Source of the DNA: an uncultured Tateyamaria sp.
GTDB lineage: Bacteria; Pseudomonadota; Alphaproteobacteria; Rhodobacterales; Rhodobacteraceae
Assembly: GCF_947496075.1 (NCBI RefSeq)
Contig: NZ_CANMBJ010000005.1
Span: forward strand, 124,001 to 188,000
Reading direction: 5' to 3'
Length of the DNA: 64,000 nt
Shown: positions 24,972 to 43,779 of the stretch, piece by piece
Numbering within the stretch: the stretch's first letter is position 1
Layout of the letters: each line of letters begins with the position of its first letter
The notes under the pieces: generated by a model
Told to the model about the DNA's origin: nothing
Databases searched by the model: none
Seen by the model: the letters and a program-made list of their open reading frames with translations, nothing else
Program-made: the position numbers and the translations under genes

Positions 24972-24973
24972 GC

Positions 24974-25825
24974 TCAAAGCTCCTTCCTGATATCGACGAA
25001 CCGCAACAGGGTTCCGATGAGAAGCAGCACCGTGATCAGCAGGATCACAGCGGTGGCAGAGGCCGAGGGGTATTGCAGTAGGCCGATATCGTTCTGGATC
25101 ATCCGGCCTACATTGGCCGACTGAGACCCGCTCATGAACCGCACGGTGATGAAGTCGCCCATTACCAGCGCCACGACGAAGATCGTCCCAATCATAATGC
25201 CCGGTTTGGTCAGGGGGATGATCACGTGCCACAGCGTCTGCCAGCCGGTGGCCCCCGCATCCGCCGCAGCCTCGATCAGGGATTTGTCTATCCGCATCAT
25301 CGTGTTGAAGATCGGGACCACCATGAACAGCGTGTATAGATGCACGAAGGCGAGGATCACGCTGAAATCACTGAAGAGCAGCCACTCAAGCGGCTCATCG
25401 ATCACACCCATCGAGATCAGCGTTGAATTTGCGATCCCGTTGCGGCCCAGAAACGGGATCCAGGAAATCATGCGAATGATGTTCGAGGTCAGGAAGGGGA
25501 TCGTGCAGAGCAAGAACAGCACGATCTGCCATGTCAGGCTGCGGATATGGAAAGCAAGGTAGTAAGCGACGGTGAAGCCGATCAGCAAGGTGAAAACCCA
25601 CGTCATGGCCGCGTATTTGAACGTGTTCAGGAACACCCGATAGGTGACGTCAGAGGTAAGCAGAAACTGGTAATTGTCGAATTGGAATGCCGGATAGATC
25701 GACCATTCCGTCGCGCCCCAGAAGCTGACGACGATGATCATTGCAATGGGCGCGACCAGAAAGACGAGCAGCACAAGCGACAGCGGGGTCGCCAAAAGCC
25801 AACCTATGACCGAATTGTTGCGCAA
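24974..25825 (-). CDS. PotB-type ABC transporter permease
   Basis: 283 aa from TTG 25825, with GAGG five bases ahead; no ATG or GTG is suitable after the binding-protein gene. About six transmembrane segments, with the EAA-loop motif EAAADAGATGWQTLWHVIIPL (given by its ends; about residue 180-200). It is separated from the solute-binding gene by 68 bp containing a hairpin that probably reduces downstream expression compared with the binding protein. Confidence 0.87.
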   Translation of the reverse strand: MRNNSVIGWLLATPLSLVLLVFLVAPIAMIIVVSFWGATEWSIYPAFQFDNYQFLLTSDVTYRVFLNTFKYAAMTWVFTLLIGFTVAYYLAFHIRSLTWQIVLFLLCTIPFLTSNIIRMISWIPFLGRNGIANSTLISMGVIDEPLEWLLFSDFSVILAFVHLYTLFMVVPIFNTMMRIDKSLIEAAADAGATGWQTLWHVIIPLTKPGIMIGTIFVVALVMGDFITVRFMSGSQSANVGRMIQNDIGLLQYPSASATAVILLITVLLLIGTLLRFVDIRKEL

Positions 25826-25860
25826 ACCTGCCTCTGTTGTCTTTGTCGTTGCTCGGAGAT

Positions 25861-25884
25861 GCCGGAGGGCCGCAGCTCTCCGGC
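25861..25884 (-). other. Intercistronic hairpin after the binding-protein gene
   Basis: GCCGGAG (25861-25867) pairs with CTCCGGC (25878-25884) across a 10-nt loop. No T-run follows on the minus strand. Such stems often stabilise the upstream mRNA and give excess binding protein relative to permeases. Confidence 0.55.
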
Positions 25885-25893
25885 AAGCATCGC

Positions 25894-27168: not shown

Positions 27169-27193
27169 GTCAGTTTCCCTGTTTTAGGTTTCG

Positions 27194-28177
27194 TTAACTT
27201 GCCAAGGCGTGTGCGGCCTCGGCTTCCCAGTCGAGGCCAATGGCCTCTCCCAAATCCTTCGGGTCACCGAAGAAATCCTTGTCTGAAAGAAGTGCAGTGA
27301 CCTCTTGTTCGCCTCGAACGACGGCGGTCAGTGCGACATGCGTGCCCTGATATTCGATATTGGTGATTGTGCCGGGCAGTTTGGCGGTATCCGTAGATGT
27401 GACCTGCAAAGCATCAGATCGAATGGCCACCATGCCGTCAGGCATGGACACAACATTGTGCGAGCCCAGGAATCGGGCGACAAACGCCGACTTGGGGGCC
27501 TCGAAGACAGACCGTGTTTTGCCAGCCTGTTCAATCTTTGCGTCGTTCATCACGACAATCTCGTCGGCAAGCGCCAAGGCTTCATCCTGGCCGTGGGTCA
27601 CGTGAACAAAGGTGATCCCAAGTTCGCGCTGGAGTTTTTTCAATTCGGCCCGCATGCGAATACGTAAGAATGGATCAAGGGCCGATAGCGGCTCATCCAG
27701 CAGCAGCACATCTGGCTTCGTGATCAGCGCGCGTGCGAGAGCCGCGCGTTGTTGCTGCCCACCAGACAATTGTGCGGGAAGGCGGTCTGCCAAAGCAGTC
27801 ATATCGACCAGTTCCAGCATCTCTTTCGCCCTGGCATGTCGCGCCGCGGTCTCGACGCCTTGCATGCGTAGGCTGAAGGCGACGTTGTCCAATACGCTGA
27901 GATGCGGGAACAGCGCGTAGTTTTGAAACATCATCGCGGTGCCGCGTTTGGCGGGTGGCAAGTGCGAAATGTCTCGCCCGCCGAGGGTGATTGACCCATC
28001 CGAGACGTTTTCGTGACCTGCGATCATCCGCAAGGTCGAGGATTTCCCGCAACCGGACGGCCCCAAAAGACAAGCATATGTGCCCGCGTTGAAGTGGTAA
28101 CTGATCGCGTCAACGGCAACAGTCGCCCCATAGCGTTTTGTCAGGCTGATTAGTTCAAGATCCAGCTTTTGGCTCAT
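27194..28177 (-). CDS. PotA-type ABC transporter ATP-binding protein
   Basis: 327 aa from ATG 28177 (GGGGGT ahead); longer upstream frame rejected. Walker A LGPSGCGKSST (about 37-47), signature [15 protein letters not shown], Walker B LLLDEPLSALDP and the C-terminal TOBE-like domain (GTITNIEYQGTHVALTAVV) are present. First gene of the importer/racemase operon, divergent from the GntR regulator; the shared 223-bp region carries the likely operator. Confidence 0.92.
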   Translation of the reverse strand: MSQKLDLELISLTKRYGATVAVDAISYHFNAGTYACLLGPSGCGKSSTLRMIAGHENVSDGSITLGGRDISHLPPAKRGTAMMFQNYALFPHLSVLDNVAFSLRMQGVETAARHARAKEMLELVDMTALADRLPAQLSGGQQQRAALARALITKPDVLLLDEPLSALDPFLRIRMRAELKKLQRELGITFVHVTHGQDEALALADEIVVMNDAKIEQAGKTRSVFEAPKSAFVARFLGSHNVVSMPDGMVAIRSDALQVTSTDTAKLPGTITNIEYQGTHVALTAVVRGEQEVTALLSDKDFFGDPKDLGEAIGLDWEAEAAHALAS

Positions 28178-28318
28178 CGTACCCCCAAGGTCGTAAAACC
28201 ACGCTGGCCGATGAAATTTGGTTCGACCAAGTTGAATCAGACCTTTGCCAAGCTCAGAAATGGCGAGTTGCCCGAAATCGACCAATTGATGCGAGCATTG
28301 TGCAAAATTCAGGCAAAA

Positions 28319-28330
28319 ATTGTATACAAT
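28319..28330. promoter_or_regulatory. Perfect palindrome ATTGTATACAAT, candidate GntR/FCD operator
   Basis: A 12-bp perfect inverted repeat in the divergent region, 71 bp before the regulator gene and 142 bp before the importer ATPase gene. FCD-type GntR proteins often bind TTGTATACAA-like sites, so it is a strong candidate for self- and operon control. Confidence 0.65.
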
Positions 28331-28400
28331 CCGGATTCGTTTTGTGTCAGGTCTTGAGCGCCCTCTGCCCGCTGTGCAGGTTGCGACAAGGGGGTGCTGA

Positions 28401-29090
28401 ATGCCGCTTTTAACTGAGCCCAAGACCGCAACCGTTGAGGAAATCGTTGGTCAATTGACCGAGGCCGTTCACGAACACCGCCTGCAACCCGGTGCGAAGC
28501 TGCGTGAAGATGAGGTCTGCGAGATATTTGGTGTCAGCCGTACCATTGTGCGGCAGGCCTTGCGCTCGATGGAATTCGAGGGCCTGCTCACAATTGAAAA
28601 GAACAGGGGCGCCTTTGTCTCGAAACCCACGCTGAAAGAAGCGCGAGAGGTCTTTCAAGCGCGTGCATTAATTGAACCAAGTACGGCGCGTGCCGCAGCG
28701 GATCGCGCCAATGCCGAAGATATCGTACTACTTGAGCACCATATTGAACAGGAGCACGCGGCGCTCGACCGTGGCGAGGCAGGGCTCGCGTTGAAGCTGT
28801 CCGGCGACTTTCATCTCGAGATCGCGCGCATGGCTGATCAGCAGACCATCGAACAATTCTTGCGACAGTTGGTGTCCCGCTCGTCTCTGGTCATTGCCTT
28901 GTATTGGCGACGTCGGAATGCGCTTTGCGAAAGCAATGCGCACCACGCCCTTGTCGATGCTTTGCGCAAGGGTGACGGTGATAATGCCGAAGAGCTGATG
29001 AAGGGGCATTTGCTCGATATCTTCTCGCAACTTGATCTGCGCGAGCGTCAAGAAGCCACAACCTCGTTAAAGGACGCGCTCCGGCGATGA
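28401..29090 (+). CDS. GntR-family regulator, FCD (FadR) subfamily
   Basis: 229 aa. The N-terminal winged helix-turn-helix has LREDEVCEIFGVSRTIVRQALRSMEFEGLL (given by its ends, residues about 35-64), the classic GntR recognition helix. The C-terminal FCD domain is all helical, with metal-ligand type His in FHLEIARMA and HHALVDAL. It responds to a small carboxylate or amino-acid ligand. Divergent from the importer/racemase operon and probably its repressor. The GNAT gene overlaps its stop (ATGA). Confidence 0.9.
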   Translation: MPLLTEPKTATVEEIVGQLTEAVHEHRLQPGAKLREDEVCEIFGVSRTIVRQALRSMEFEGLLTIEKNRGAFVSKPTLKEAREVFQARALIEPSTARAAADRANAEDIVLLEHHIEQEHAALDRGEAGLALKLSGDFHLEIARMADQQTIEQFLRQLVSRSSLVIALYWRRRNALCESNAHHALVDALRKGDGDNAEELMKGHLLDIFSQLDLRERQEATTSLKDALRR

Positions 29091-29917
29091 TTGAATATCG
29101 CACTGCAACACTGCCAGAGTTGAAGCTGATCCTGGATTGGGCCGGGGATGAAGGCTGGAACCCCGGTCTGGATGATGCGGAGGCCTTTTTCGCAGCGGAC
29201 CCGGATGGGTTTTTTGTGGCTGTTGACCGGGACGATACACCGATTGCTGCAATCTCGGTCGTCAATCATACGCCCGATTTTGCATTTCTCGGTCTTTACA
29301 TCGTACGTCCAGCCTATCGCGGGCGGGGCATCGGGTTTGGCCTTTGGGCGCATGCGATGCAGCACGCAAAGCACCGGACGGTCGGACTGGACGGGGTAGA
29401 GGCACAGCAACAGAATTACCGCGCATCGGGATTTGTACATGCAGGCGGCACCACACGTTTTACAGGTCATTTAACTGGGCAGCACGATCCGGACATTCGC
29501 CGCATACGCTCTGATGACATCCCGGCCTTGATCCAGATGGAGGCCGAGGCCTCGGGCGTGGCAAAACCCACCTACCTGCAGGCATGGTTTTCCGGTGCCT
29601 CGACCCGAACCACTATTGTCCTTGAGGATAAAGGCGTTATCGGCGGCTTTTGCACGGTGCGTTCCTGCAGGTCGGGGGCAAAGATCGGTCCTTTGGTCGC
29701 CGCAGATACCGGGATGGGGTACAGGTTGATTGCGCACGCAGCGACAACGTTTGATGGGCCTGTGACCTTGGACGTTCCTGAGACATCAGCAGGCTTGGCT
29801 GACCTTTGCGAACGTTTCGGGTTGGAGGCCGGTTTCAAAACAGCGCGTATGTATCGCGGGTCTTCTCCAGCCAGGAACCACCCAACTTACGCGGTTACAA
29901 GCCTTGAGCTTGGCTGA
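29087..29917 (+). CDS. GNAT N-acetyltransferase, two-domain
   Basis: 276 aa, coupled to the GntR gene by ATGA. The first GNAT domain has the acetyl-CoA loop VRPAYRGRGIGFGLW (about residues 70-84) and a following alpha/beta core; the second half (about 140-276) resembles the DUF1248-like C-terminal domain of YitH-type acetyltransferases. It would acetylate an amine, plausibly the imported compound or its product, because it is co-transcribed with the regulator of the importer. Confidence 0.83.
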   Translation: MIEYRTATLPELKLILDWAGDEGWNPGLDDAEAFFAADPDGFFVAVDRDDTPIAAISVVNHTPDFAFLGLYIVRPAYRGRGIGFGLWAHAMQHAKHRTVGLDGVEAQQQNYRASGFVHAGGTTRFTGHLTGQHDPDIRRIRSDDIPALIQMEAEASGVAKPTYLQAWFSGASTRTTIVLEDKGVIGGFCTVRSCRSGAKIGPLVAADTGMGYRLIAHAATTFDGPVTLDVPETSAGLADLCERFGLEAGFKTARMYRGSSPARNHPTYAVTSLELG

Positions 29918-29989
29918 AAACGCGCCAAGATCTCCCATTCTGGTTCAGGGGATTTGGCCAAGCCAAACGTCCTGAGCTGCTAGGGTGCT

Positions 29990-30223
29990 TTCATCGGTCA
30001 CTACAACCATCAGCGCTATCATGCGAGATTGCGTAACCTGACACCCGCCGACGTCTACACAGGCCGCAGGCACACAATACTTCTCGAACACGAAGGACAA
30101 AAACGAAAACCATGAGACTGAGGCGCTTGCAGCACGCAAAATCAGCGGCTCAGCTGAAACCAGATGAGCGATGACTCATCAAAGTCAAACTGCCATCAGT
30201 CTCAATTTATCTGATGACGGACA
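29990..30223 (+). mobile_element. IS3-family insertion sequence remnant: 3' end of orfB and possible right inverted repeat
   Basis: From 29990 a frame reads FIGHYNHQRYHARLRNLTPAD and continues VYTGRRHTILLEHEG to a TGA at 30113-30115. This is the conserved C-terminus of an IS3-type integrase-core transposase; everything upstream is absent. About 100 bp further, CTGATGACGGACA (30211-30223) resembles the terminal inverted repeat of such elements and may mark the right end. Inactive. It marks the left border of the small-protein/giant-protein block. Confidence 0.75.
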
Positions 30224-30708
30224 GGCAAAAAGGTTGCCCCGCCCATTCAAATCGGGCCGGTAGTGCAGCAGATAGAAAAACCAGAATCGTGTAATCGACT
30301 ATTCTGACCCGTACGCACTCAGCTCACACTCCATACGAGCTCAGATAGCCGTTTCGCCACATGATCGACTTATGGTGTATTTTTTCCCGCATAGATACAC
30401 ATGATTCTGGCTTCAAAACCACAGAGCAGCCATGCTTTCGAAGCTGAAAATCTCATTTATTTTCAATGTGTCAAGAAATATATAGGCGCGTTGGTGAAAT
30501 TGTTGGGAGTGACTTTTGATCAGCTTCATACTACCTTAACGGGAGTAACTATTGATTTTCCGTTTTGTTCACAAATTGCAGGTCTTTCAGAAGATGTATT
30601 CCCTGCCACCTAAATCCGATCGCTTTTCCGAAATGAGTGGTGGTGCATTGGTGTCCTCCTCCCATCTGACGCTTTCAACGTCGCGATCAAGCAGCTACGC
30701 AATAGGCT
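30224..30708. other. AT-rich 485-bp gap upstream of the small-protein cluster
   Basis: No convincing gene is seen; a 70-codon frame (30401-30613) has no recognisable ribosome site or family. The region is clearly more AT-rich than its surroundings. CCTCCTCCC (30655-30663) is an anti-Shine-Dalgarno-like run, and GACG...CGTC near 30668-30683 can form a small hairpin. It probably contains the promoter for the block that follows. Confidence 0.5.
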
Positions 30709-31137
30709 ATGGCCAAGGCATATTTCATCAACGCAACGCCCCTCTCCATGACGGTCAACCTGAACGCAGCCCCAACAAACAATCCATTGGCCGCCTTCGA
30801 GATCGTTACAAAACGTCAAATGCCTGTAATGAAATACAATTCATGGCCAGCCACGATTGCAGCCTATGCCGGGCGCAACATCTTTGGCGGAAAAAAACAG
30901 ATCAATGCAATCACCGTGTTCATGGAATCACACACCGCTCCACTGGTGTTCAACGTACAATCGGATGTATCGATCGTGCTGGATTTGTATTTTTACATTC
31001 AGGACGGCGCGATCACCGGCGCGGACATGACCGGCGACAGTTCAAAAATTACCATCGTTCCATGGAACCAGGATTTGACGCGCAAGATGCGCATCCAATC
31101 GCTGAATGCATTCAGCTCCGACCAGTGGCGCACGTAA
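30709..31137 (+). CDS. Small protein of an unrecognised family, paralogue 1
   Basis: 142 aa; starts MAKAYFINATPLSMTVNLN. Its first ~120 residues align with the 121-aa gene at 31607 and with the N-terminus of the giant at 32092. Shared points: MAxAYFxN, the L-N at 18-19, NIFGGKKQINAITV (about 56-69) and SIVLDLYFYIQDGAITGADMTGDSS (given by its ends, 87-111). No signal peptide or membrane helix. The strand pattern suggests a beta-sandwich. A 22-residue basic tail is unique to this copy. No strong ribosome site precedes the ATG. Function unknown. Confidence 0.8.
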   Translation: MAKAYFINATPLSMTVNLNAAPTNNPLAAFEIVTKRQMPVMKYNSWPATIAAYAGRNIFGGKKQINAITVFMESHTAPLVFNVQSDVSIVLDLYFYIQDGAITGADMTGDSSKITIVPWNQDLTRKMRIQSLNAFSSDQWRT

Positions 31138-31210
31138 CGAGCACACACTGCACGGCCAGAAAGGCGTCCCCCCCGAACCGCATTGATGCTGCCACGACAG
31201 GAGGGAGCAG

Positions 31211-31558
31211 ATGGCTTCGAACCTGCGCATAATAAATTGGCAAGCGGACAAGATGACGTCCACGCTGAACACCAAGGCCTTGGCACCGCTCGCGCACAGC
31301 GAGGCCAAGTATAACTACATCCCGAATTCCCTGACGGTCCGTCGCGAACCGGCAAGCGAGCCTGCGCCCGGGGTCTGGGGGCGGCACAACACGTTGGTTG
31401 TGCAGTCCGAAGGAAGTTCGGGATCGCAATTGTACAACGACCTTACCGATCCGGCGGACGCAGCACCGAATATCGAAATGCTGTTATGGATATTCCCCGA
31501 TTATGTGGTGTTTTCGCAGCTCGAAAAACAGCTGGGCCAAAAGATTTACCCGTCCTGA
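31211..31558 (+). CDS. Small protein, probable divergent paralogue 2
   Basis: 115 aa, with GGAGGGA before ATG 31211. No known family. Weak but ordered similarity to the neighbours: an IIN near residue 8, TLN at about 18, GVWGRHNTLVVQSEG matching the NVFGG...NEVLFVSE block, and IEMLLWIFPDYVVFSQ matching VLDLYFFMFEDTIVGED. It lacks the MAxAYF start and the TGDSSGITI end. Lies in the same orientation between paralogues 1 and 3, in one likely operon. Confidence 0.75.
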   Translation: MASNLRIINWQADKMTSTLNTKALAPLAHSEAKYNYIPNSLTVRREPASEPAPGVWGRHNTLVVQSEGSSGSQLYNDLTDPADAAPNIEMLLWIFPDYVVFSQLEKQLGQKIYPS

Positions 31559-31606
31559 AGGAACCACTCACGCAGACCGATTTTTCAACCAAGAGGAAGT
31601 CCAAAA

Positions 31607-31972
31607 ATGGCAAAAGCGTATTTTATCAATGCAAGCCCCACTGATGTGAAGGTGACACTGAACACAGGTGCGCAGAACGCGTTGGCAGCGGTTTCGGTGA
31701 ATACCGACGGGACAGCGGTTTCAGGCCCCGCATGGGCGGCAAAAATCGAGGCCCGTCCCAGCCCAAACGTGTTTGGCGGGGATACACACGACAACGAGGT
31801 TTTGTTCGTGTCCGAGCAAAAAGCAAAGACCCGTCGCTACACCATTACATCCAAGGTCTCGACCGTGCTGGATCTGTATTTCTTCATGTTCGAGGACACG
31901 ATCGTCGGTGAAGACGCCACCGGCGACAGTTCGGGCATCACGATCACCTTGGTCGACAAGCGAGACGGCTAA
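31607..31972 (+). CDS. Small protein of an unrecognised family, paralogue 3
   Basis: 121 aa, with GAGGAAG ahead of the ATG. Begins MAKAYFINASPTDVKVTLNT; conserved blocks are NVFGGDTHDNEVLFVSE (about 53-69) and VSTVLDLYFFMFEDTIVGED (about 83-102), ending TGDSSGITITLVD. It is the shortest complete copy and probably defines the domain boundaries. No signal peptide; soluble beta-rich protein predicted. It is followed by two hairpins and then the giant gene. Confidence 0.82.
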   Translation: MAKAYFINASPTDVKVTLNTGAQNALAAVSVNTDGTAVSGPAWAAKIEARPSPNVFGGDTHDNEVLFVSEQKAKTRRYTITSKVSTVLDLYFFMFEDTIVGEDATGDSSGITITLVDKRDG

Positions 31973-31979
31973 CCTGTCA

Positions 31980-32048
31980 AGGCGGCGCTGCAGCCGCCTG
32001 ACATGATCTACAATCATAAGATGTCCGACCGGCCGGTTTTCCGGTCGG
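31980..32048 (+). other. Two strong hairpins between paralogue 3 and the giant gene
   Basis: AGGCGGC-n6-GCCGCCT (31980-31999) and CCGACCGG-n8-CCGGTCGG (32025-32048) are perfect stems of 7 and 8 bp. Neither is followed by a T-run on the plus strand, so partial termination or mRNA processing, giving more small protein than giant, is more likely than a full stop. Confidence 0.6.
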
Positions 32049-32091
32049 GCGTTATCCCTATACCGCGCACACTTCTGGGGGGTGTTGAGCT

Positions 32092-35000
32092 ATGGCGAAC
32101 GCATATTTCCTGAATGGCTCGATCAGCGATATCGAACTGGTTCTGAACCAGGGCGGAAAACGCTCGATCAAGGGTCTGGACCTGCAGAACGCGCAACTGG
32201 ATATGACCACCGAATACGGGTGGGCCGCAACCCCGGCGGCGGATGTTCTGGGCACCGGGTCCAACGAGTTGGTGGTCAATATCAACAACGGCCCGACGAT
32301 CAAATATGAAATCTATGTCGGACACGAAGTCAAAACGGTTCTGGATGTCCAGATCATTGTTTTCGACAACGCTCTTCAGCCACGCAACACGGTGACAACG
32401 GACGGGTTTGAGATCAGCGTAATCCTGTTCGACGAGGAAAAAACGGTCGCAATGGCCGCGATGGAGGAGCACGAACCGGACGCTGCGCTGTTCACAACCC
32501 GCACGGCCCCAGCAGTTGTTCCGCATGAAAGTGGCGATGACATCAGTTTCGCGCGGGCCGCGACCGATGACACAGCGACCTTGTATGTTGCCAGCAACAA
32601 CGGGTCCGGCGGCGGCAATATCGCGTTGACCTATTACTATCTGTTCGAAGGCCAAAGCACGACGGATACGCTGACCTTACCCGAAAGCTATGACAGGACG
32701 GGTGCCTATGTCTTTTCTGACGAAGACGTTGACCCCAATGATCTGCTGGCCGAGTTGAACGGCGTTCTGACCAAGGAACCCACCACGTTTTCCCGCATCG
32801 CCTGGCGTCACGATGCAAACACTTATGACATTGTTGCGTCGTCAACCGCTTATGCAGTGCCGACAAACGCGACGTTGCAAATCGGGACGTGGCAGCTGGA
32901 CTTGCGGCGTAACACGCGCATTTCGCTCGATATCGATGCACCGGCCATCAAGTTCGACAAGGCATCAGGCGAAGAAAGCATTCAGGTGCAGATCGTCGAG
33001 AACGACTTACCCCAACCTGTCGGCACACGTCCAACGCAAGTGGTGCTGCCCTTATCCGGCAATCACCGCGGCACGCTGACCTTTGCCTGGGATTGGAGTC
33101 ATTACGAGTTGGGCCAGCAATACGCGGGTTTGCAGCGCGTGTTCTATGGCCATGACGCGACAGGCGCTGACGCGGCGCAATACCCACTGTTCACGCCTGC
33201 ATCTGATCCGGGGCCGATCAGAGTCAAAGATTTGTTTTTCAACGTTTATCTGCAACCGCTTTCACCATTGAACGACCTGCGCACACGCATGGCCCTTGAT
33301 CTGGGCGAACCCAATGCGCTGACATCGCAATACTTGTCCAGCACGACCAATGCGCCTGTTTCGATCTCTCCAGCGGCCCCCAAGACCCAAGATCTGACCG
33401 GCGGCTTCGCCTTTGCCAAGAACACCGGGACAGAGGAAAGCGACCGGTACCTTTGCCCGGTGGGTGAGTTCGAAGTAGCCCCCGGGGATGGTCTGACAGC
33501 AGAAGAACGCGTCCAGATCCGCAGCGGGCTGGCAGGAACCGAGTATGTTTTGGTCGAGCCCGGTGACCGGTTGTTGTTTGAATCGGGCAAACCAGCCTTT
33601 GCCAAGTCCTACGATCCGCAGGATGGCACGCCCACCACGTTGGACGGCGCGTTGACCACAAGCTGGATACGCGTACTCAAGCAATCCGCAGTCGAAGCTG
33701 CTGACGACGTCGAAGTGGTCAACACCAGCTATTGTGCGCAGGCGTCATCGTCGACTTACTTCGGACGTGAGTTGGACGCAGCGAAGGCGCGATACGAGTT
33801 TCCGATTGCGGTGGGGGCAAGCCTGCTGCAATTCGAACAGGCCAACGAAGACGTGGCCTTTCCCATGCTGCCCTATGGCGGGGTGTTCTACTCTGACGAT
33901 GACGAAGGGATCGTGAACCCCAACGCAGACCTATCCGCCGAAGAGCTTTCGGCGATTGAACGACAGGTGGTCTCGCCGGATCGGCGGGACACGTTGCAAC
34001 CCTATTTCAGCGTCGATTACGGCCCGATCTTTTTTGATACGTCCACCAACCTGGCCTTTGACGGCGGCTTTGCACGCACGCCGTTGGGCCTGTTGGTGGA
34101 GCTGAACCCTGTCAACGGTGGCACGCCGCCCGCGGGAACAATAAAGAACCTGATCCTTGCACGCAGCCCGCAGAACCCGGACCAGTTCCTGCAACTGACC
34201 TCGAATGAGGGCAGCAATGGCGTGGTCAACCCGACGTTTTCAAACACTGTGCTGAACGACAGCCTTTTCATGGTGGCGACAGATCAGAGCGCGTTCGAAC
34301 CGTTTCCCGACAAGAACATCAAGCTTGGGGATTTCACCTTTGATGTCCAAATGGGCAATGCCGACAATCAGGCTGTTGCGATCTTCAAGTTTGTGCCTGG
34401 TGTCTCGGCACGCGCCCTGATCGAGGATGACAACACCTGGACCACGTTGATCGCAGATGGTGCGACGAAATCAGATGTTCAGACCCGGCTGCTGACTTAT
34501 TTGAAGGCAGCCGACGAAGGAGGCGACCTGTTCGCGGCCTTCCGCCAGACGATTGATGACCCCAATTGGAACGGCATCCTGATTTTCAACTGCCCGCTCA
34601 ATTATGACGAGCTGCCGCTGGACATTCAGATCCTGCTGGGCGGGATCAAAGGGCAGCTGTTGGCGCATCACTTTGGCATCACGATCAACCGGGTCGAGGA
34701 CAAGGACAGCGCCGCGTCGGTCGAACACAGCTCGCTGTTTTCGGTCATCAACTACGACGCCTCGAAGCTTGATCCGCCTTACACCATCCCCGCCTCGCCG
34801 CCGACCGAGTTCCCGGATTTCCGGGTGTTGCTGTTGAACGTGCAATACGCCAACAGCAAATTGGCGGTGTTCGACTCTCAGATTGCGTTCAGCATCAAGG
34901 AGTTGTTCGGGAGCAGCGTAACCCTGCAACCAGGGCCATCGCTGGATTATCCGGAATATGGCACCATTGTCATCGACGGCGTTTATACCTTGTTCGAGGA

Positions 35001-38000
35001 TGGCACCGGATCGCTGTTGTTCTCGACCCAGGACGAGCGCAGTTTCGTCTATGACGACACGGGCGACAAATTCACCGCACTTGTGGCCCAATCGATAACC
35101 GAGGCGACTCTGGTCCCGGTCACACGGCGTGACGGGACCGGTGATTGCGAAGTGATCGCCGCGTCCGCCTTCCGGATCAGCGGGCTGCTGGCATTCAAAG
35201 ACGGGATTGCGGGCGATCTGTTCTCGTATGGCGAGGTTGCCGACAACGTTCCGACCAAAGGTTTGGCGATCACTGGTTACAGCTTTGACATGACGACCTG
35301 CATCAAGGCCGACAACACCGCCGATTTGATTGACGGAATCCCAACCAACCTGACCGGCGTCAAGGTTGACCAAATGCTCAGCGAGGCGCGGGATTACAGT
35401 TTCGAGCGCACGTTCCCCGGTATCATCGAGGCCGTTTTGCCATCCCCCGACGGACTGACCCCATCCGAAATTGGAGAGTGGCAGGTCAAGACGGGCAGCG
35501 GGACCAACACTGGCGCCCCGCGCTACAGCCTTCAATTCGAAGTGCCGCTGGGCACGTTCGGCATGTTGGCTTCGTTCAAGACCGACCTGACCGCGACGCT
35601 GTTGATCGGCTGGGATCCCGACGCGACAGATCCGGAAAAGCAGGTGGGCGTGATCCTGCGCCTGCCGCCAGAAATTTCTGGGCCCAAAGGGTTCATGTTC
35701 GAAGGCGTCATTGCCTCGGACTTTGAATACGTGCAGCTCGACCGGTTCGAGTTTGGCGAGACGACTTATGTTTCAATGCTGCGGTTCATGCATTTTCAGT
35801 CGATGTTGCTGAATTTCTTCCTCAGTTATGGGGTTGGGCCCAAGGATCTTGGCATTTTTGGCGCGCCCGGCGATCCTGGCGGTCGCAACTCACTGTTCTG
35901 GATTGGTAAATCCACCGACACAGACTGGAACGGGCCAACGATCAGCGTGACGCTGGTGGATGTGCCGCAGGGGTATCTGGGCCGGTCGTTCGAGATCAAG
36001 ACCGACCCGACCAATCCAAACGTGATCACCGACGTATTCAATCAGTTGAATCTGATGACCGACAAGACGGTCGAACAGGTGGCGCGTCTGATCTTTGCCA
36101 ATCTCGATCTCTACAATTCGGACGCAGGCATCGCCTTTGCGCTTCAGTTCAAATACCAAAGCCTCAAACTGACAACGGTCCTGATCGATTCCAGCTTTTA
36201 TGGATTGCAGATCAACATCACCCCGCCGGAAAAGAAAGAACCTGACGGTGGCGGCGGCAAAAACGGCAACGGCAAGAGGCTGGTTGCCAGCGACGGCAAC
36301 GCCGTGATGGCCGACGATGACAAGGACGGTGACGACAAGGACGAAGGTGGATTCCTGGGCAAGGTCAAAGGCTTTACCTTTACCATCATCTACCGAAAAG
36401 TGAGCGATGAAGTCGGTGTTTATTCCGCCGACATTTATCTGGATCTGGGCACCATCCCGCTGGGTCCCGTGATGCTGTCGCTTCCGAATTTCAGCATTTC
36501 GATCTGGACCAATGGCGATTGGCGGTTTGCCATCGGCTGGCCTTTCACCGGGACAACGGCACATCCGATCACGGTCCAGTTCCAGGCGGGCCCGTTGCCC
36601 CTGATCGTCAAGGCCGGGTTCTACCTGGGCAAACTCAGCAGTGCCGCCGCGCCTGACCAGTTCGGGACCGAATTCAATCTGATCTGGACCTTTGGTCTGG
36701 GGATTGCAGGAGGCGTCGGCAAGGAGTTCGAAAAAGGCCCGCTGAAGGCCGGAGCGAGCCTGATGCTGGGCTGCACAATCGAAGGGTTCCTTGCTTCGTT
36801 CGATGGCAAGATGACACAGACCGGTGTCGACTACTGGTGGTGGGGTGTCAGCCTGTCGCTGACCGGCAACGTGTTCGGCAAGGTCGATTTCAAGATCATC
36901 GCGGTGGACGTGTCGCTGACCATTTCATTGACCGTCGCATTCGCGATTGAGACCGCGCATTCGTCGCCATTGAAATTGACAGCCGAAGTGGTTGCCAAGG
37001 CGTCGATCAAGATCGTGTTCGTCAAGATATCGTTCTCGTTTACCGCCAAGCTGGACCTGATCGACACGGTGATCGGCAGCGGGTCTGCGGTTGCGAAACT
37101 CAGTGGACCAACGCCCACGGCCGTGAATTCTGGCCGACCGCTCGAGGCGGATATCCTCCTGGAGGCCATGGCAAGGCCAGCCAGCGCCCCATGGGCGCGG
37201 TTGTCCCACGGCATCCACACGCGGCTTGTCAAAGACAAGACCCCGATCACTGTGGGCTTCGTCCTGCAACCGACAGCCATTGCGACCGGGGATTCGACAG
37301 AAAACTGGGCGCCACAGGGCGTCGCCACTCTGGTCCTGGAATCCGGTAGTCTGGGCAGTCCGTTTGGCGTTCTTGCGTCGGAATTGTCCAGCTGGCTGGT
37401 GCACAATTACAGCGGATCCGCGACCACGTTCCAGGAACAGTTGGCAGCAACCGAAGCAGCGTTGCAAAACGGTGAATTCGACCGCGAAGCCATTCTGAAG
37501 GCGCTGTCCGATACGTTCATCTTCAACATCGGGAAGACCACATTCACGGCTGACACCGCCGTTGTGTCGATGGCCATGCCCGACAGCCTTGGCCTCGAGT
37601 ACAATGGCGGCAAGGTGATGAACGCCTCGCTGCGCAGCGCCATCGCCAGTTTCGGCCACCTGCGCTTGCCGTCGAACTACACCGACATTGTCGCGGCGTA
37701 TTTTGGCGGTGGTGACAGTCTGCAAGCCGCTGAGATGGTGGAGGAATCGACTGCCGCGCTGGTATTCGACGAATATTTCAACCTGCTGGGTCAGCAGGTC
37801 ATTGAATTGCTGATCGAGACCGGTGCGCCAGATCTCGACACCGCGTTGAGCGAAATCAGCATTGACGATCTGGGCGGCTTTGTGTCGCGTTTCCTGATGG
37901 GCGGTGTGCGTCTGCCTGATCCCAATGACACCAGCAAGCTGGAGGCGCTGTATGTCCTGACGGGGCAGCAATTCGCGCTGGTCAAAGCGGATGATGCGTG

Positions 38001-41000
38001 GGTGTTGGGGGCAAAGTTGACCACCACCGCCGACACGCCCGAGTGGATCAAGGTCGCGGATGATGCCACATCCAGCCTTGATCCATCCATGGTGCACACC
38101 ACGGGCCCGGCCACGCCGCCGTGGACCGTGGGACCATTGCGCGCACTGGTCGAAAAACCGCTGATTTTCCCGATGAACAACATCAATAGCTGGTCCGACG
38201 GGGATGACGACTACATCATCAACACATTGTCTGAGGATGTTGTGCAAGCGGTGCGGGATTGGCGCAAGGACACGGGCGCAACCACAGGTCCGTGGCTGAC
38301 CAATCAGCTGTTTGGTGGTGAATCAGATGCCGATCAGCAGACTGACCTTTCAAGTGGCGGCACGCCCTGGGAGGCGGACAGCGCACTGGTCCTGCCGATC
38401 CGATTGGCCTCGATCCCCGATCCGGATGCGGTTGAGCCGGGTGCAATCCTGACTGACACGTTCTCGTTGTTGGGTACGGACGAAGCCAACCGTGCGATGT
38501 TGCAGGCCCTGCTGGACGAGATTGACGCAGGCAACGAGTCCGTGAACTCCATCGACTTGTTGGTGAGCGAAAGCCGGGGCAACTGGGCGTCTTCCAAGAC
38601 ACCCCGCGTATTGGTGCGCACCGATCTGTCGACCGTCAGCACACCTGCGGGGGTGGCCGCCGCCAACGCGGTGGCCGAAGCCAATGCGGGCACGGATGCC
38701 GAACCGACCCCCAGCCTAAACTGGGCGAAACCAGGTGAAGGTGGTGTGCAACTTGCCCGGTTCCTGCGCCTGACATGGGAAGTGTCCGTCGTGCATTCGT
38801 CGGGTTTCTACCTGCAAGTCGAAGGGCTTGATCTGAACATATTCCAGAACGGTCCGGCTGATCTGGCGTTGGTGGTGCAATTCGGCACCAAAGGGTCGAT
38901 CACACGTGCAGCACCCTACCAAAACGCGTTGATCGGATCGGCGCCCGACAAGGGCAAGGCGATCTTCAGCACGTTGGCCGAAGACTCGGACGGCACTCCA
39001 GTCCAGGGATATGCTGCTGCCTATGCTGGCGGTTCAGTCGGGTGGTCGATCACTTGGGACAACGCACCAGACGAGGCAGATGCAGGCAGCGGTGACTTTC
39101 TGCAGGGGCTGTACCAGATGGTCAGCTACCGCATCGAAAAGATCAATGGCACTGCTCAGCCCAATGAGAACTGGAGCCGTCCGATCAATGCGAATGACGA
39201 AAGCGGTGCCGGTGCCGACGCGGTCACGTGGATCTATTCCAAGGCGTTCGAAACGGCGACGCCGGTGGGAAGCGACAACCGCTATGGCGCGATCAACGAT
39301 ACGTTCACAGTGCGCATCTCGATCGAGGACGTGTTCGGAAACTCGGTCCCTGCATCGCTGATGGCCACCACGGACCTGAAGGTCGTTTACAACGACGATC
39401 TGATGGGGTTGGCCGATTGGTCGGGCACGCAGGTGTATTACGCGGTCGAAGACAAGGGTGGCGTGCAGTTGGAACTGCGCATGTCGTTCGATCCGTCGAC
39501 GATCCAGGATGCCGAAGGCAAGGTGAATGCAGATCAATTGCAGGTCACAACCGACCAATATGCCAAGATCTATGAACAACTAACCGATCAACCGAACACC
39601 AGCGCTGCGGTGGATACCGGCGACACGCTGGCGGATGCACCTTTGGGTGTGCTGGCGTCGGGGGACAGCGTGATATCGGGCCTCGTGGGTTACATAACGC
39701 CTCTGCTGGACTGGCTACGGGCAGGCGGTACCGGTGAGGCACCTGCGGCCATTACGTTGGCCATGCCGCTCGACAAATCACAGCCTGCAAACTGGGCGGG
39801 TGACTTGCAGGAGCTGGTGGTCAGCCTGGTGCTTCAACGGGCTGATGTGCCTGATGACATTGCCGACAAAGCACCTGAGGTCCGCATGGTCACCTCTCCG
39901 ATGCAGCCGGTGGAGGACACGGGCGAAAAGGACGATCCCTCGGGCCTGACGACGTTCGCCGACAAGTTCGAGACGGCGTATTATCCGTTCGATGACAAGG
40001 TTGGCGTGGTCAAGGTTGCCACCGGGCAGAACAGCGACATCACCAGCCAACGCTTTGGCCGCCGCAGCATTTGGTTGCAGCGCTGGGGCAAGGGCGTGGG
40101 CACCGAGGTCGAGATCGTCAAAGGCGAAGATGGCAAACCCGAGCCGATCTTCTATGCACCGCCCCCCCTCAGCCGTCAACTGATCACGCGGGACGTGCCG
40201 AACCTGAAGGATTACGGCAATCCCAGCGGCTCGGACAAAGGCTATGATCTGGTCAATCGCATTTTCAACAGTACGGATATGGACCAATGGGGCGCGCTGT
40301 TCCTGACCACGGTCGAAACGATCTTTAGCCCGATCATGGCCCCGGCCGTTGCGGATCATTCCAGTATCGAGGACGAGCTGTACGATCCCTTTGTGGAGAA
40401 CAAGGAAACGTTGGCCGGGTCGATTTCGGACAAGATCACCTATGTCTACGACGAACTGGACGGCACGGGTGATCCGAAGTCTGCCAAAGAGACGTGGCGG
40501 CAGGCCTTGCTGCGCACGTTGGCCAATGACTATGGCTTCTCGACGCTGACGCAGCTGGAGGCGATTGTGAACCTCAACGGTCCGATCGAACCCAGCGGGG
40601 ACCCTTCGCTGCCGCCACAACTCTATGGTGCCGTGCAGGTCCCCGGACAGGGTGACCCGGACAAGCTGCCCTATTCGCTGACGCCGTCGACCCTACCGCT
40701 GGTGCAAACCACAGACGACCAAAAGAACTGGCTGAACTTCCTGGTTTCGGCCAGTGACCCAGAGGCACAGCGCGCTTTCAATCTGGATCTGAACTATGAG
40801 GTCAACCAGTTGGAGCATCAGCGCGATGGTCAGGCATCGGATCGTGGATATGTCCCGTCCAGCTGGCTGACCTTTGTCCTGCAACAAAACCCCGGCGATC
40901 TGCCGCAGGAACAGGACAACACGCTGACACAGCCGATTGGCGAAACACGGATTCCGATCCCGTTGCGCAGCTATCCGCCCTTGCCCAAACTGCTGTCGAC

Positions 41001-42195
41001 CAAGGCGCAGGCCAAAACGACGGTCAGCACCATTCAGGATGCGCTGGTCTGGAGCTACGAGTTGCAGGTCGAACGCTCGGCCGCCGATCAGGACACCCTG
41101 AACCTGTCGCTGACGTTCAACCAGCTGCAAACGAACATGGGTCCCACATCGGTCTCTACCGCGGCCTTGTTGGCCACCGACGACGGGCGCGACCCGCCCA
41201 AGGATTTGTTCGATGCGCTGGCGCGGTTTGTCTTTGAATATCCACAGCTCGAACCCAAAATCGAACAACTGCCCGCCGATGGTGGTGCAGAGTCGGTCAA
41301 CGCGCTCAAGGATTTCAGCGCGATCATCGCAGGCGTTGCGGCAACATGGAGCAGCTGGCAACCGCCGGAGCCACCGCGCGGTGGGCTGGACCGGGTCACG
41401 GCGGATGACGACACTGAAGTCTGGCACTTTAACATCCAGAATGTCGAAAACAGCACGGACTTACAGGTGAAAGGCACTTGGTCGCGCTCAAGCGGCACGC
41501 CGCCATGGCCAACGATCACTGGTTACACGTTCAAATCAGCCAGCGGTGATACAGCGATCTATTCGCCCGACAACGGCAAGTCGGAACGTGTTCTGACGCT
41601 GACATGGGAGAACCTTTACGTCCTTGACTACCAGAATGTGCTGCCAAGCGCGTTCACCGAGCGGAACCGAAACCTCGCCGTCCCACCCCAGCAGACCAAC
41701 CCGGACTTTGTCTATCGCACTGAAACGGTCGCGTGGCCCACGCCTATCGTGCCTCTGATTGGTGCACCAGACCAGATAGACCTCGAGTCAAAGGCGACGC
41801 TGGCAGAAGCTGTTGAGGCGATGTTGATCGACCTGACCACCCCGCCGAAGGATTCGGTTCAGAACGGCACCAACCCACCGTTGGAAACTGAAAGCTCGAT
41901 TTCCTACCGGTATGAGGTCATGGCGAATAAGGGCAACAGCGCCTACAGCGTGCTGCCGGTCTTCCTGGTCGCAGGTAAAGTTGATCCGGGTGATGAAAGG
42001 ACACTGGCTGCTCAGATCGCGTCAAATCTGGCAAATTGGCAAGCAACCACGAGCGCACAATCCCCCGACAGCAGTCTAAAGTTTCTGCTGACGGTATTTG
42101 CGACCACGATTGTCACCGACAATGACCGACTGCCGCTGGTGCAGTTCCAGGAGCTGGTGATCCCTGTGCCGAAGGATAGTTCAGGTTGGTGGTGA
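32092..42195 (+). CDS. Giant 3367-residue protein with an N-terminal small-protein domain
   Basis: 3367 aa (roughly 360 kDa), unbroken. GGGGGTG precedes ATG 32092. Residues 1-115 (MANAYFLNGSISDIELVLNQ...) repeat the fold of the small proteins upstream. The rest is mostly beta-rich and matches no family I can name with certainty. Residues about 1378-1422 are a low-complexity Gly/Asp/Lys linker (PPEKKEPDGGGGKNGNG... DDDKDGDDKDEGG). About 1455-1665 follows a run of alternating hydrophobic strands (LSLPNFSISIWTNGDWRFAI; SIKIVFVKISFSFTAKLDL) that recalls, without proof, DUF6603-type proteins. No signal peptide, transmembrane helix, RTX repeats or catalytic motif seen. Ends DSSGWW inside a hairpin. 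Confidence 0.85.
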   Translation: MANAYFLNGSISDIELVLNQGGKRSIKGLDLQNAQLDMTTEYGWAATPAADVLGTGSNELVVNINNGPTIKYEIYVGHEVKTVLDVQIIVFDNALQPRNTVTTDGFEISVILFDEEKTVAMAAMEEHEPDAALFTTRTAPAVVPHESGDDISFARAATDDTATLYVASNNGSGGGNIALTYYYLFEGQSTTDTLTLPESYDRTGAYVFSDEDVDPNDLLAELNGVLTKEPTTFSRIAWRHDANTYDIVASSTAYAVPTNATLQIGTWQLDLRRNTRISLDIDAPAIKFDKASGEESIQVQIVENDLPQPVGTRPTQVVLPLSGNHRGTLTFAWDWSHYELGQQYAGLQRVFYGHDATGADAAQYPLFTPASDPGPIRVKDLFFNVYLQPLSPLNDLRTRMALDLGEPNALTSQYLSSTTNAPVSISPAAPKTQDLTGGFAFAKNTGTEESDRYLCPVGEFEVAPGDGLTAEERVQIRSGLAGTEYVLVEPGDRLLFESGKPAFAKSYDPQDGTPTTLDGALTTSWIRVLKQSAVEAADDVEVVNTSYCAQASSSTYFGRELDAAKARYEFPIAVGASLLQFEQANEDVAFPMLPYGGVFYSDDDEGIVNPNADLSAEELSAIERQVVSPDRRDTLQPYFSVDYGPIFFDTSTNLAFDGGFARTPLGLLVELNPVNGGTPPAGTIKNLILARSPQNPDQFLQLTSNEGSNGVVNPTFSNTVLNDSLFMVATDQSAFEPFPDKNIKLGDFTFDVQMGNADNQAVAIFKFVPGVSARALIEDDNTWTTLIADGATKSDVQTRLLTYLKAADEGGDLFAAFRQTIDDPNWNGILIFNCPLNYDELPLDIQILLGGIKGQLLAHHFGITINRVEDKDSAASVEHSSLFSVINYDASKLDPPYTIPASPPTEFPDFRVLLLNVQYANSKLAVFDSQIAFSIKELFGSSVTLQPGPSLDYPEYGTIVIDGVYTLFEDGTGSLLFSTQDERSFVYDDTGDKFTALVAQSITEATLVPVTRRDGTGDCEVIAASAFRISGLLAFKDGIAGDLFSYGEVADNVPTKGLAITGYSFDMTTCIKADNTADLIDGIPTNLTGVKVDQMLSEARDYSFERTFPGIIEAVLPSPDGLTPSEIGEWQVKTGSGTNTGAPRYSLQFEVPLGTFGMLASFKTDLTATLLIGWDPDATDPEKQVGVILRLPPEISGPKGFMFEGVIASDFEYVQLDRFEFGETTYVSMLRFMHFQSMLLNFFLSYGVGPKDLGIFGAPGDPGGRNSLFWIGKSTDTDWNGPTISVTLVDVPQGYLGRSFEIKTDPTNPNVITDVFNQLNLMTDKTVEQVARLIFANLDLYNSDAGIAFALQFKYQSLKLTTVLIDSSFYGLQINITPPEKKEPDGGGGKNGNGKRLVASDGNAVMADDDKDGDDKDEGGFLGKVKGFTFTIIYRKVSDEVGVYSADIYLDLGTIPLGPVMLSLPNFSISIWTNGDWRFAIGWPFTGTTAHPITVQFQAGPLPLIVKAGFYLGKLSSAAAPDQFGTEFNLIWTFGLGIAGGVGKEFEKGPLKAGASLMLGCTIEGFLASFDGKMTQTGVDYWWWGVSLSLTGNVFGKVDFKIIAVDVSLTISLTVAFAIETAHSSPLKLTAEVVAKASIKIVFVKISFSFTAKLDLIDTVIGSGSAVAKLSGPTPTAVNSGRPLEADILLEAMARPASAPWARLSHGIHTRLVKDKTPITVGFVLQPTAIATGDSTENWAPQGVATLVLESGSLGSPFGVLASELSSWLVHNYSGSATTFQEQLAATEAALQNGEFDREAILKALSDTFIFNIGKTTFTADTAVVSMAMPDSLGLEYNGGKVMNASLRSAIASFGHLRLPSNYTDIVAAYFGGGDSLQAAEMVEESTAALVFDEYFNLLGQQVIELLIETGAPDLDTALSEISIDDLGGFVSRFLMGGVRLPDPNDTSKLEALYVLTGQQFALVKADDAWVLGAKLTTTADTPEWIKVADDATSSLDPSMVHTTGPATPPWTVGPLRALVEKPLIFPMNNINSWSDGDDDYIINTLSEDVVQAVRDWRKDTGATTGPWLTNQLFGGESDADQQTDLSSGGTPWEADSALVLPIRLASIPDPDAVEPGAILTDTFSLLGTDEANRAMLQALLDEIDAGNESVNSIDLLVSESRGNWASSKTPRVLVRTDLSTVSTPAGVAAANAVAEANAGTDAEPTPSLNWAKPGEGGVQLARFLRLTWEVSVVHSSGFYLQVEGLDLNIFQNGPADLALVVQFGTKGSITRAAPYQNALIGSAPDKGKAIFSTLAEDSDGTPVQGYAAAYAGGSVGWSITWDNAPDEADAGSGDFLQGLYQMVSYRIEKINGTAQPNENWSRPINANDESGAGADAVTWIYSKAFETATPVGSDNRYGAINDTFTVRISIEDVFGNSVPASLMATTDLKVVYNDDLMGLADWSGTQVYYAVEDKGGVQLELRMSFDPSTIQDAEGKVNADQLQVTTDQYAKIYEQLTDQPNTSAAVDTGDTLADAPLGVLASGDSVISGLVGYITPLLDWLRAGGTGEAPAAITLAMPLDKSQPANWAGDLQELVVSLVLQRADVPDDIADKAPEVRMVTSPMQPVEDTGEKDDPSGLTTFADKFETAYYPFDDKVGVVKVATGQNSDITSQRFGRRSIWLQRWGKGVGTEVEIVKGEDGKPEPIFYAPPPLSRQLITRDVPNLKDYGNPSGSDKGYDLVNRIFNSTDMDQWGALFLTTVETIFSPIMAPAVADHSSIEDELYDPFVENKETLAGSISDKITYVYDELDGTGDPKSAKETWRQALLRTLANDYGFSTLTQLEAIVNLNGPIEPSGDPSLPPQLYGAVQVPGQGDPDKLPYSLTPSTLPLVQTTDDQKNWLNFLVSASDPEAQRAFNLDLNYEVNQLEHQRDGQASDRGYVPSSWLTFVLQQNPGDLPQEQDNTLTQPIGETRIPIPLRSYPPLPKLLSTKAQAKTTVSTIQDALVWSYELQVERSAADQDTLNLSLTFNQLQTNMGPTSVSTAALLATDDGRDPPKDLFDALARFVFEYPQLEPKIEQLPADGGAESVNALKDFSAIIAGVAATWSSWQPPEPPRGGLDRVTADDDTEVWHFNIQNVENSTDLQVKGTWSRSSGTPPWPTITGYTFKSASGDTAIYSPDNGKSERVLTLTWENLYVLDYQNVLPSAFTERNRNLAVPPQQTNPDFVYRTETVAWPTPIVPLIGAPDQIDLESKATLAEAVEAMLIDLTTPPKDSVQNGTNPPLETESSISYRYEVMANKGNSAYSVLPVFLVAGKVDPGDERTLAAQIASNLANWQATTSAQSPDSSLKFLLTVFATTIVTDNDRLPLVQFQELVIPVPKDSSGWW

Positions 42196-42206
42196 TCCCA
42201 CCAACC
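42184..42206 (+). terminator. Hairpin at the end of the giant gene
   Basis: GGTTGGTGG-TGATC-CCACCAACC is a perfect 9-bp stem whose loop holds the TGA stop codon of the giant gene. It is followed by TTACGG rather than a T-run, the same ending as other hairpins in this window. It may end transcription or protect the 3' end. Confidence 0.6.
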
Positions 42207-42379
42207 TTACGGCTGCGCCTGGGTAGGTCCAGTATGTGTACCTGCGTAACCCCGTCAGGGCCTTTGAGACAGACTGGGTTGTTTTGCTAAGCGAGAGTTG
42301 TGAGCTCATCATGATCTTTGAGAGGATACGAGATGAGATCAAGTACTGGGCCGAATGGATAGCTGACAAGCTTGTAAAA

Positions 42380-42436
42380 AAGATCAGGCGCAAGACGCGG
42401 TAGAAATTTTCTGCCGAAGAGAAGATCCGCATTGTT
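42380..42436 (+). pseudogene. IS3-family orfA fragment, 5' part
   Basis: Reads KIRRKTR-stop-KFSAEEKIRIV, the N-terminus of the IS3-type orfA (usually ...RRKTRKKYSAEEKIRIVL...), with a TAG in frame. It is cut off where the IS5-type fragment begins. The 185 bp before it hold no recognised gene. Confidence 0.6.
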
Positions 42437-42449
42437 CCAGGGTCATGAA

Positions 42450-42748
42450 TCATAGCCAATAGATGACGATTGCCGAGAGGAACATCTTTGGGCAGCGATC
42501 ATACCGCGTTGCGGCACGCCGCCTGTCCTTGAGCCTGCCGAACATGATCTCGATGCGGTTACGCCGTTTGTCCTATTTGACGCCCATACTGGTCGCTGTT
42601 CGGTAGGCCTTGAGGTAGGTCGCATCGATCATGACGGCCTTTTCTTCGCTGTGCTCGGCAGCCAGCCCGACCACCAACTGAGTACGCCGGGGCAGACAGC
42701 GCGATGCTGCGTTTGCTCCGAGGTCGGCAGTGAGCCCCTTTGACAAAT
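42450..42748 (-). pseudogene. IS5-family transposase, internally deleted
   Basis: On the minus strand: SKGLTADLGANAASRCLPRR... LAAEHSEEKAVMIDATYLKA then YRTATSMGVK, directly joined through a TAG to DKRRNRIEIMFGRLKDRRRA, ATRYDRCPKMF and a shortened end IVIYWL. The middle ~100 residues with the second catalytic Asp are deleted. The conserved first Asp (MIDATYLKA) and the EIMFGRLKD motif identify the family. Inactive, inserted into the IS3 fragment. Confidence 0.8.
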
Positions 42749-42828
42749 GCTGGAATGCCGAGTTAGCTCTGAAATGATTTACTCAAACAACATGTCCCAA
42801 TAGTCGCCACAAAACTGAGAACATCGCG

Positions 42829-43176
42829 ATGTCCAAGCCTAGAAGTACGGCAACAATAGCGCCTGATGATCTGTCGAAAGCCTTGGAAATATGTGCGAGA
42901 TCACCTCTATCGAACGCGATTGGACGAAAAAAATGGCGTACAGATGCTTGGTCCGAAGTCATTGAGTTTTTTGGAGAAACGAAGGCAGATCTTATCCTGG
43001 AGACCCACGAGGAAATGACGAGCACGTTCTTCTCAATGAAGCCAACACATACCTCCGGCGCGAACTTGATGCATGACGCCAAGACTGTTCGAAACGACTT
43101 TCTTGCAGCATATCCATCAGTTCCCAACCAGCTGGTTCAGAGTTTGGTGGATGAATACTTCTGGCTAAGTCGATAG
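42829..43176 (+). CDS. Hypothetical protein, 115 aa
   Basis: Starts MSKPRSTATIAPDDLSKALE; predicted mainly helical, soluble, no Cys-rich or membrane part. No family is recognised. A TTGACA at 42740-42745 could be the -35 of a promoter. It lies just outside the IS fragments, so it may belong either to the accessory block or to the old chromosome. Ribosome site weak (GAGAA). The 135 bp after it contain nothing recognised. Confidence 0.5.
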   Translation: MSKPRSTATIAPDDLSKALEICARSPLSNAIGRKKWRTDAWSEVIEFFGETKADLILETHEEMTSTFFSMKPTHTSGANLMHDAKTVRNDFLAAYPSVPNQLVQSLVDEYFWLSR

Positions 43177-43311
43177 AGTATCGATTGTACTCGCAACAAC
43201 GACTGTCCGCTATTCGTCTCGCACATTGGAATTGGAACCGTCGGCGGCAGCTCCGTCCCGCACAGCCACCAATCGCCGAGTGTCAAAACATCGCTGACGA
43301 AAAAACCGGAG

Positions 43312-43758: not shown

Positions 43759-43779
43759 CACACATCTCTTGAAAGAGTG

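Follow-up and report, generated by a model that had tools for sequence, protein, structure and literature searches.

A fused giant protein in an uncultured Tateyamaria sp. represents the compact form of a widely distributed gene cassette built on two giant proteins

We have analysed a block of four open reading frames (ORFs) in a 64,000-nt stretch of the genome of an uncultured Tateyamaria sp. (NZ_CANMBJ010000005.1, positions 124,001-188,000; from here on the window), the last of which encodes a giant protein of 3367 amino acids (aa). Profile comparisons show that this block belongs, as a compact version, to a widely distributed gene cassette in which two giant proteins, here called A and B, usually flank an exchangeable module, and by the same comparisons the 3367-aa giant is the A and B parts of two such proteins fused into one. 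An earlier note on this DNA had described three small paralogues followed by a giant carrying their domain at its N-terminus. The four ORFs and the size of the giant were confirmed, and most of the ~3200 residues that remain of the giant, passed over at that time, turned out to have relatives in many phyla. We consider the architecture of the cassette well supported; its function we infer. The reading that we find most likely, though tentatively, is that the cassette forms a carrier or delivery complex for conflicts with other cells or with viruses, and that the window has a copy of it without an enzyme. The features of the block are the following.

30709..31137, + strand: P0002, small protein of 142 aa, paralogue of P0004, found only in its own genome in the searches made
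31211..31558, + strand: P0003, small protein of 115 aa, kinship with P0002 and P0004 unproven
31607..31972, + strand: P0004, small protein of 121 aa
32092..42195, + strand: the giant, 3367 aa, free of internal stops
32092..32445, + strand: residues 1-118 of the giant, an N-terminal domain that is homologous to P0004 and P0002 and is added ahead of the A module
32548..35901, + strand: A module (giant residues 153-1270), a separate gene of ~1200 aa in most relatives
36358..37053, + strand: B core (giant residues 1423-1654), core profile E=2e-84, predicted mostly beta
39139..42156, + strand: C-terminal stretch of B that is conserved (giant residues ~2350-3355), where BLASTP coverage reaches 78 of the 90 other loci

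To collect relatives, 84,980 species genomes were scanned with an alignment of the core, which gave 141 pattern matches, 122 of them encoding relatives. The best 80 were kept and, joined by the window and by the loci from plasmids and from the family, minus the duplicates L010, L013 and G067 (the same contigs as L025, L031 and L068), they make up 88 non-redundant loci; the duplicates are still inside the 90 other loci used for BLASTP coverage, the 91 core-bearing proteins, the 26 nuclease-type proteins and the 82 genes after B. Phylum placement was possible for 78 of the 88 loci, which fall in 12 named phyla, archaea included. The A-family profile matched residues 153-1270 of the giant almost end to end (positions 4-1136 of 1157, E=6.9e-131), and the core carries the motif TNGD...GWP where most relatives have TNGDF...GFP. 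Coverage by the 90 other loci followed the same division, with none over residues 1-149, up to 78 over A, all 90 over the core and up to 78 over residues ~2650-3050, while the segment of B that usually lies ahead of the core is absent from the window giant. Among plasmids, tblastn with residues 1-2996 found eight records (two of Azospirillum and one each of Nostoc, Paenibacillus, Lysinibacillus, Mycetohabitans, Tistrella and Embleya), and in the six that were opened the match spans two or more adjacent large genes. Within the family the core was present in 4 of 294 other genomes. Neither Pfam nor NCBIfam has a family for P0001-P0005 at E<=1, nor do the PADLOC (2023) defence profiles for P0001-P0004 at E<=0.01, but the giant is not unique. 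PHROGs gave a single match at chance level (P0002, E=0.16). A phage origin of the block was considered and not found, the core having no match in phage records at E<=0.01 and viral contigs yielding no confirmed relative of either the giant or its small N-terminal domain.

The usual order in gene maps is one or more small proteins, then A (~1200 aa), one module and B (mostly 2500-4100 aa). Six-frame profile searches found A in 82 of the 88 loci, always ahead of the B core; the six loci lacking it (L027, L028, L032, L059, L064 and L079) all begin near a contig end. Exactly one module type lies between A and the core in 74 of the 82: an unassigned module of ~500 aa, free or fused to B, in 35 loci, an Exo_endo_phos-type nuclease in 27, a metallo-beta-lactamase (MBL) fold in eight, and HNH and a second unassigned module in two each. 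No modelled module was found in the other eight (L042, L054, L069, L080, L011, L015, G099 and the window). The distance from A to the core, 3749-5324 nt (median 4174) in the 74 loci with a module, is 1309-2698 nt in L042, L054, L080 and L011, which may have module types beyond the five modelled, and falls to 326-456 nt in the window, L069, L015 and G099. The window fits the A profile and then the B core on one strand, with none of the five module types between. A and the core share a single frame in three of the 82 loci, namely L069, G099 and the window, the gap being 456 nt in the window and 444 and 441 nt in the other two. L071, L087 and L099 were also tried as A+B fusions and rejected, A lying there in another frame.

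The enzyme-less giant might also be a decaying remnant that has survived by chance in an island of recent arrival. It has no module, no B segment ahead of the core and no LysM-like pattern; the block has transposase-like remnants on both sides and is absent from the congener examined. Besides, the window core sits on a very long branch (2.78, against a median of 0.11 in the core tree), and its exact kin are therefore unsure. However, the 3367 codons run without a stop and with a third-position guanine plus cytosine (GC) content of 0.72, A is still matched nearly over its whole length and the same compact fusion occurs in two other loci, and we consider decay improbable. The core tree as a whole mixes phyla, with 22 changes of group where the least possible number is 11; the two cassettes of the archaeon Methanosarcina (L037 and L038) fall inside its bacterial part.

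Turning to the slot between A and B, module representatives exceeded the curated Pfam cut-offs for Exo_endo_phos (27.0 bits, cut-off 24.5), Lactamase_B (30.2, cut-off 22.7) and HNH (26.3, cut-off 21.4). Profile cross-matches or sequence clustering, together with motifs, were used to assign the other nuclease-type cluster (L089), the largest cluster of MBL type (L036) and the gene that comes second in the HNH pair, and the assignment of L036 is also backed by the PADLOC profile RTasMBL. GDFN is found in all 26 nuclease-type proteins (one of them a duplicate) and WN in 23, and with strict patterns SDH is found in only six and the glutamate pattern in only three; HxDxDH is found in seven of seven MBL-type proteins. 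The commonest module, that of the 35 loci, had been taken from its motifs as glycosyltransferase-like, which was withdrawn, as no such Pfam family was found in eight members and the profile matches in the PDB were viral capsids at E>=0.045. In L040 (5214-7344) two tandem MBL-type genes occupy the slot, and in L056 (4717-6707) and L101 (4692-6704) it holds two related genes, the first an HNH nuclease, which in L101 also matches Septu PtuB profiles.

That nuclease and MBL modules interchange at one position would also suit an intracellular defence or conflict system, where A and B would be a sensor scaffold and the slot enzyme a nucleic-acid effector that acts once triggered, the window copy having lost its effector. 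The PADLOC profiles point in this direction, since PtuB is the best match of the slot HNH protein (4.9e-23 over the HNH region) and the slot MBL protein has matches to RTasMBL (1.1e-9), PDC-M48B and LmuA, and so do a caspase-type peptidase annotation two genes from B and an aspartyl protease upstream of A, each in one locus. We nevertheless find defence inside the cell rather unlikely: HNH and MBL domains are common to many systems, one nuclease-type and one 591-aa module were, like P0001-P0004, without PADLOC match at E<=0.01, and the LysM-like repeats and collagen-like partners of the cassette suggest surfaces.

These partners are diverse. A family of small genes of ~230 aa is found in 29 loci, a pair of paralogues of ~115 and ~140 aa in 18 (all Bacteroidota), collagen-like proteins, judged by their repeats and without a search, in nine, and the small-domain family of the window in one; small or collagen-like families together reach 57 of the 88 loci. 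The two members of the pair are related to each other (hhalign probability 97%), and the second starts with what by eye is a leader-like stretch. Small or collagen-like genes lie upstream of A and on the same strand in 54 of the 82 loci with A, window included (53 of the 81 others), and in three loci a collagen-like gene follows B. Among these families, only the small domain of the window is fused to A. In the relative L012 the LysM of B exceeded the Pfam cut-off (33.5 bits, cut-off 20.9) and was the only Pfam family found in four proteins at E<=0.1, and a loose LysM-like pattern occurs in 52 of the 91 core-bearing proteins; L092 and L037 have NCBIfam matches in their B proteins that stay below the cut-offs and are presumably also of LysM type. 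The window giant has no LysM by Pfam at E<=1 and no loose LysM-like pattern.

Other genes were noted near A and B in single loci. In L088 an aspartyl protease (PF00026, E=1.3e-19) is encoded at 903-2078, directly upstream of A, and genes upstream in L011, L076, L092 and L095 are, we assume from their motifs, protease-like. In a Nostoc locus the gene two places from B is annotated as a caspase-type peptidase. In L092, L095 and L096, B is followed by a collagen-like gene and a gene of 419 aa, and in L092 also by a small protein that the end of the locus truncates.

The core was modelled from giant residues 1310-1720 (411 residues) with an alignment of 51 sequences, drawn from the window and from 50 of the 80 loci. 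The model has a mean predicted local distance difference test score (pLDDT) of 75.7 and a predicted template modelling score (pTM) of 0.70, with 189 of the 411 residues at 90 or more and pLDDT below 50 in model residues 356-411 and parts of 79-102. Beta structure predominates in it, six strands being 17-22 residues long, and by the family mean the hydropathy of the two faces differs by 1.5 units or more in 14 of 16 strand stretches. Foldseek returned 615 matches in the PDB at E<=10, none of them at E<=0.001 (best E 6.5e-3), and by their descriptions the best 50 of the 615 are outer-membrane beta-barrel proteins, with a template modelling score (TM) of at most 0.31. We read this likeness of the predicted core as a local pattern of long hairpins in common and not as family membership. 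Strands that are hydrophobic on one face and polar on the other might also line a long groove, the giants then being carriers of lipids or other hydrophobic ligands and the swapped modules accessory enzymes, with which the lack of a leader seen by eye would agree. This seems quite improbable to us, as no groove protein of the TamB, AsmA or VPS13 type is among the same best 50 matches and nuclease modules have no obvious part in lipid transfer.

If the cassette is instead a carrier or delivery complex, A and B would form a large beta-rich assembly that holds or carries the enzyme of the module, with the B core supplying a hydrophobic beta-sheet or a pore-like element, and the LysM repeats and the small, collagen-like or fibre-like proteins would bind surfaces. 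The window version would be such a complex without the enzyme, with its small subunits at the N-terminal end of A, a placement suggested by the small domain being fused there.

Several observations weigh against this proposal. Neither A nor B has an obvious leader by eye, no signal-peptide or secretion tool having been used. The gene after B is not recurrent, its commonest cluster reaching 3 of 82, and there is therefore no recognisable immunity gene, which would be unusual if the nucleases were aimed at close kin. All five small-gene families are missing from 31 of the 88 loci. Pfam found nothing at E<=1 for the clusters of L089 and L036 and for the second gene of the HNH pair, and no family in the eight members of the commonest module. 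To these must be added the Foldseek result, with no PDB match at E<=0.001 and a TM of at most 0.31 among the best 50, and the long core branch of the window, which may mean decay.

The small domain is the part of the block on which the earlier note had concentrated. P0002, P0004 and residues 1-118 of the giant are homologous: P0002 and P0004 share 41% identity (E=1e-24; local z score 34 against 1000 shuffles), and the first ~118 residues of the giant are 31% identical to P0004 (E=1e-9; local z 17) and more weakly similar to P0002 (E=0.036; local z 6.9, reached by 1 of 1000 shuffles). The giant does carry the domain of the small proteins at its N-terminus, as had been proposed, and two of the three supposed small paralogues are paralogues. 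The kinship of the third, P0003, is unproven. BLASTP aligned it with P0004 across 55 residues at E=0.007, with a local z of 2.7 and a global z of 3.5 (4 of 1000 shuffles reach the global score), but its global z was 0.9 against P0002 and -0.3 against the giant (1000 shuffles); 50 of 2000 P0003 shuffles outscored the real protein against a profile of the other three copies, and the hhalign probability was 0.6%. The GC content of P0003 by codon position (0.53/0.43/0.71) resembles that of the giant (0.58/0.44/0.72). The ordered motifs that had been ascribed to all copies are partly there: NxFGG is found in P0002 and P0004 only, and VLDLYFF and TGDSSGIT are exact in P0004 alone, where other copies read VLDLYFY and VLDVQII, and TGDSSKIT and TTDGFEI.

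A profile built from these three copies (P0002, P0004 and the N-terminus of the giant) found nothing at E<=0.01 in 393 other genomes of the family and 397 other genomes of the phylum (the sets overlap), or at E<=0.001 in the 87 other cassette loci, so that the domain was not seen to recur in other genomes. The best outside matches, three small proteins of Pedobacter at E about 1.2, were not confirmed, and tblastn of P0004 against plasmids gave nothing at E<=1. As far as searched, then, the small domain appears to be lineage-specific. What recurs in other neighbourhoods is the giant, normally as genes A and B, and the small genes that partner it there belong to other families, not detectably related to the window domain by hhalign (the collagen-like family was outside that comparison). 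A single small-protein family common to all loci was accordingly rejected, as the window domain gave probabilities of 0.1-0.6% against two Bacteroidota families and the ~230-aa family. The structure prediction that had been suggested for the small domain was unusable, with a pLDDT of 38.6 from an AlphaFold alignment of three rows only. We regard as very improbable the original idea of a structural assembly in which the small units polymerise or coat and serve the giant as a docking surface. The domain that two small proteins have in common with the giant would fit it, and so would the paired small paralogues of another family that precede A in 18 Bacteroidota loci, but the model is of no use here and the searches described above did not find the domain elsewhere.

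Among known systems, polymorphic toxin systems (Zhang et al. 2012; PMC3482391) resemble the cassette in having large proteins with exchangeable enzymatic modules, nucleases included, and differ from it in that the cassette module sits between two conserved giants, as a gene of its own or fused to the start of B, and not at the C-terminus. A gene annotated with a Hint domain lies beside one cassette locus. The variable toxin module that such systems have at the C-terminus of a conserved carrier was not seen here: 74 of the 82 loci with A have theirs between A and the core, the window has none, and the C-termini of B were covered by Pfam and NCBIfam scans of a few proteins. The lack of a recurrent gene after B is a further difference, but immunity proteins vary and may be present all the same. 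Insecticidal toxin complexes (Tc) are giant proteins enclosing an exchangeable enzyme, the idea proposed here for the cassette; unlike them, the cassette shows no RHS or Tc family, the window proteins having no Pfam family at all at E<=1 and L012 only LysM. With LysM proteins the cassette shares the LysM of L012, which is, however, a small part of B and is not detected in the window giant. The outer-membrane beta-barrels are approached by the long amphipathic strands of the core and its best 50 Foldseek matches, and kept apart from it by the low TM and the E-values. The core is also found in Clostridium, Streptomyces and Methanosarcina; these organisms have no outer membrane. DUF6603 (PF20248) is a domain of large proteins, and it was rejected here as none of five cassette genomes, that of the window among them, exceeded its 27-bit cut-off (sub-threshold scores of 18.7 and 10 bits in two).

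It is possible, if somewhat doubtful, that the cassette is an undescribed and very widely shared giant machine made of A, an exchangeable enzyme slot and B, which carries nucleases and other enzymes and whose core resembles a beta-barrel or a pore, whose repeats bind the wall and whose small subunits bind surfaces, the window holding an enzyme-free form in which the small subunit fused to A marks the docking site of such subunits. No such system was named in the open-access literature searched, which with few queries is weak evidence. Two conserved giants around one exchangeable enzyme slot, in 12 named phyla with archaea among them and nameless in the family libraries searched, would amount to a machine of a new kind. 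The exchangeable nucleases make a role in conflict or delivery directly testable, and the enzyme-free fusion of the window offers a natural minimal form for structural work, its fused small domain giving a docking prediction.

The surroundings of the block add the following features.

21326..43300, no strand: segment of ~22 kb that holds the block, absent from one congener examined (G240), where its flanks adjoin
29990..30115, + strand: transposase-like reading-frame remnant, read directly
42462..42700, - strand: broken transposase-like remnant, read directly

Window positions 18992-21325 and 43301-45523 match neighbouring stretches of L110, the locus of congener G240, which is consistent with either an insertion of the ~22 kb in the window genome or its loss in the congener. 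The transposase-like remnants, at both edges of the block, we take to be of IS3 type (29990..30115) and IS5 type (42462..42700). Between the block and the atp operon there is an ORF of 115 aa (42829-43176), with no match in Pfam, NCBIfam or PHROGs and with a flat GC content by codon position (0.48/0.45/0.49). The ~22-kb segment adjoins the atp operon and, judging from their sequences, presumably also contains ABC-transporter-like and regulator-like genes.

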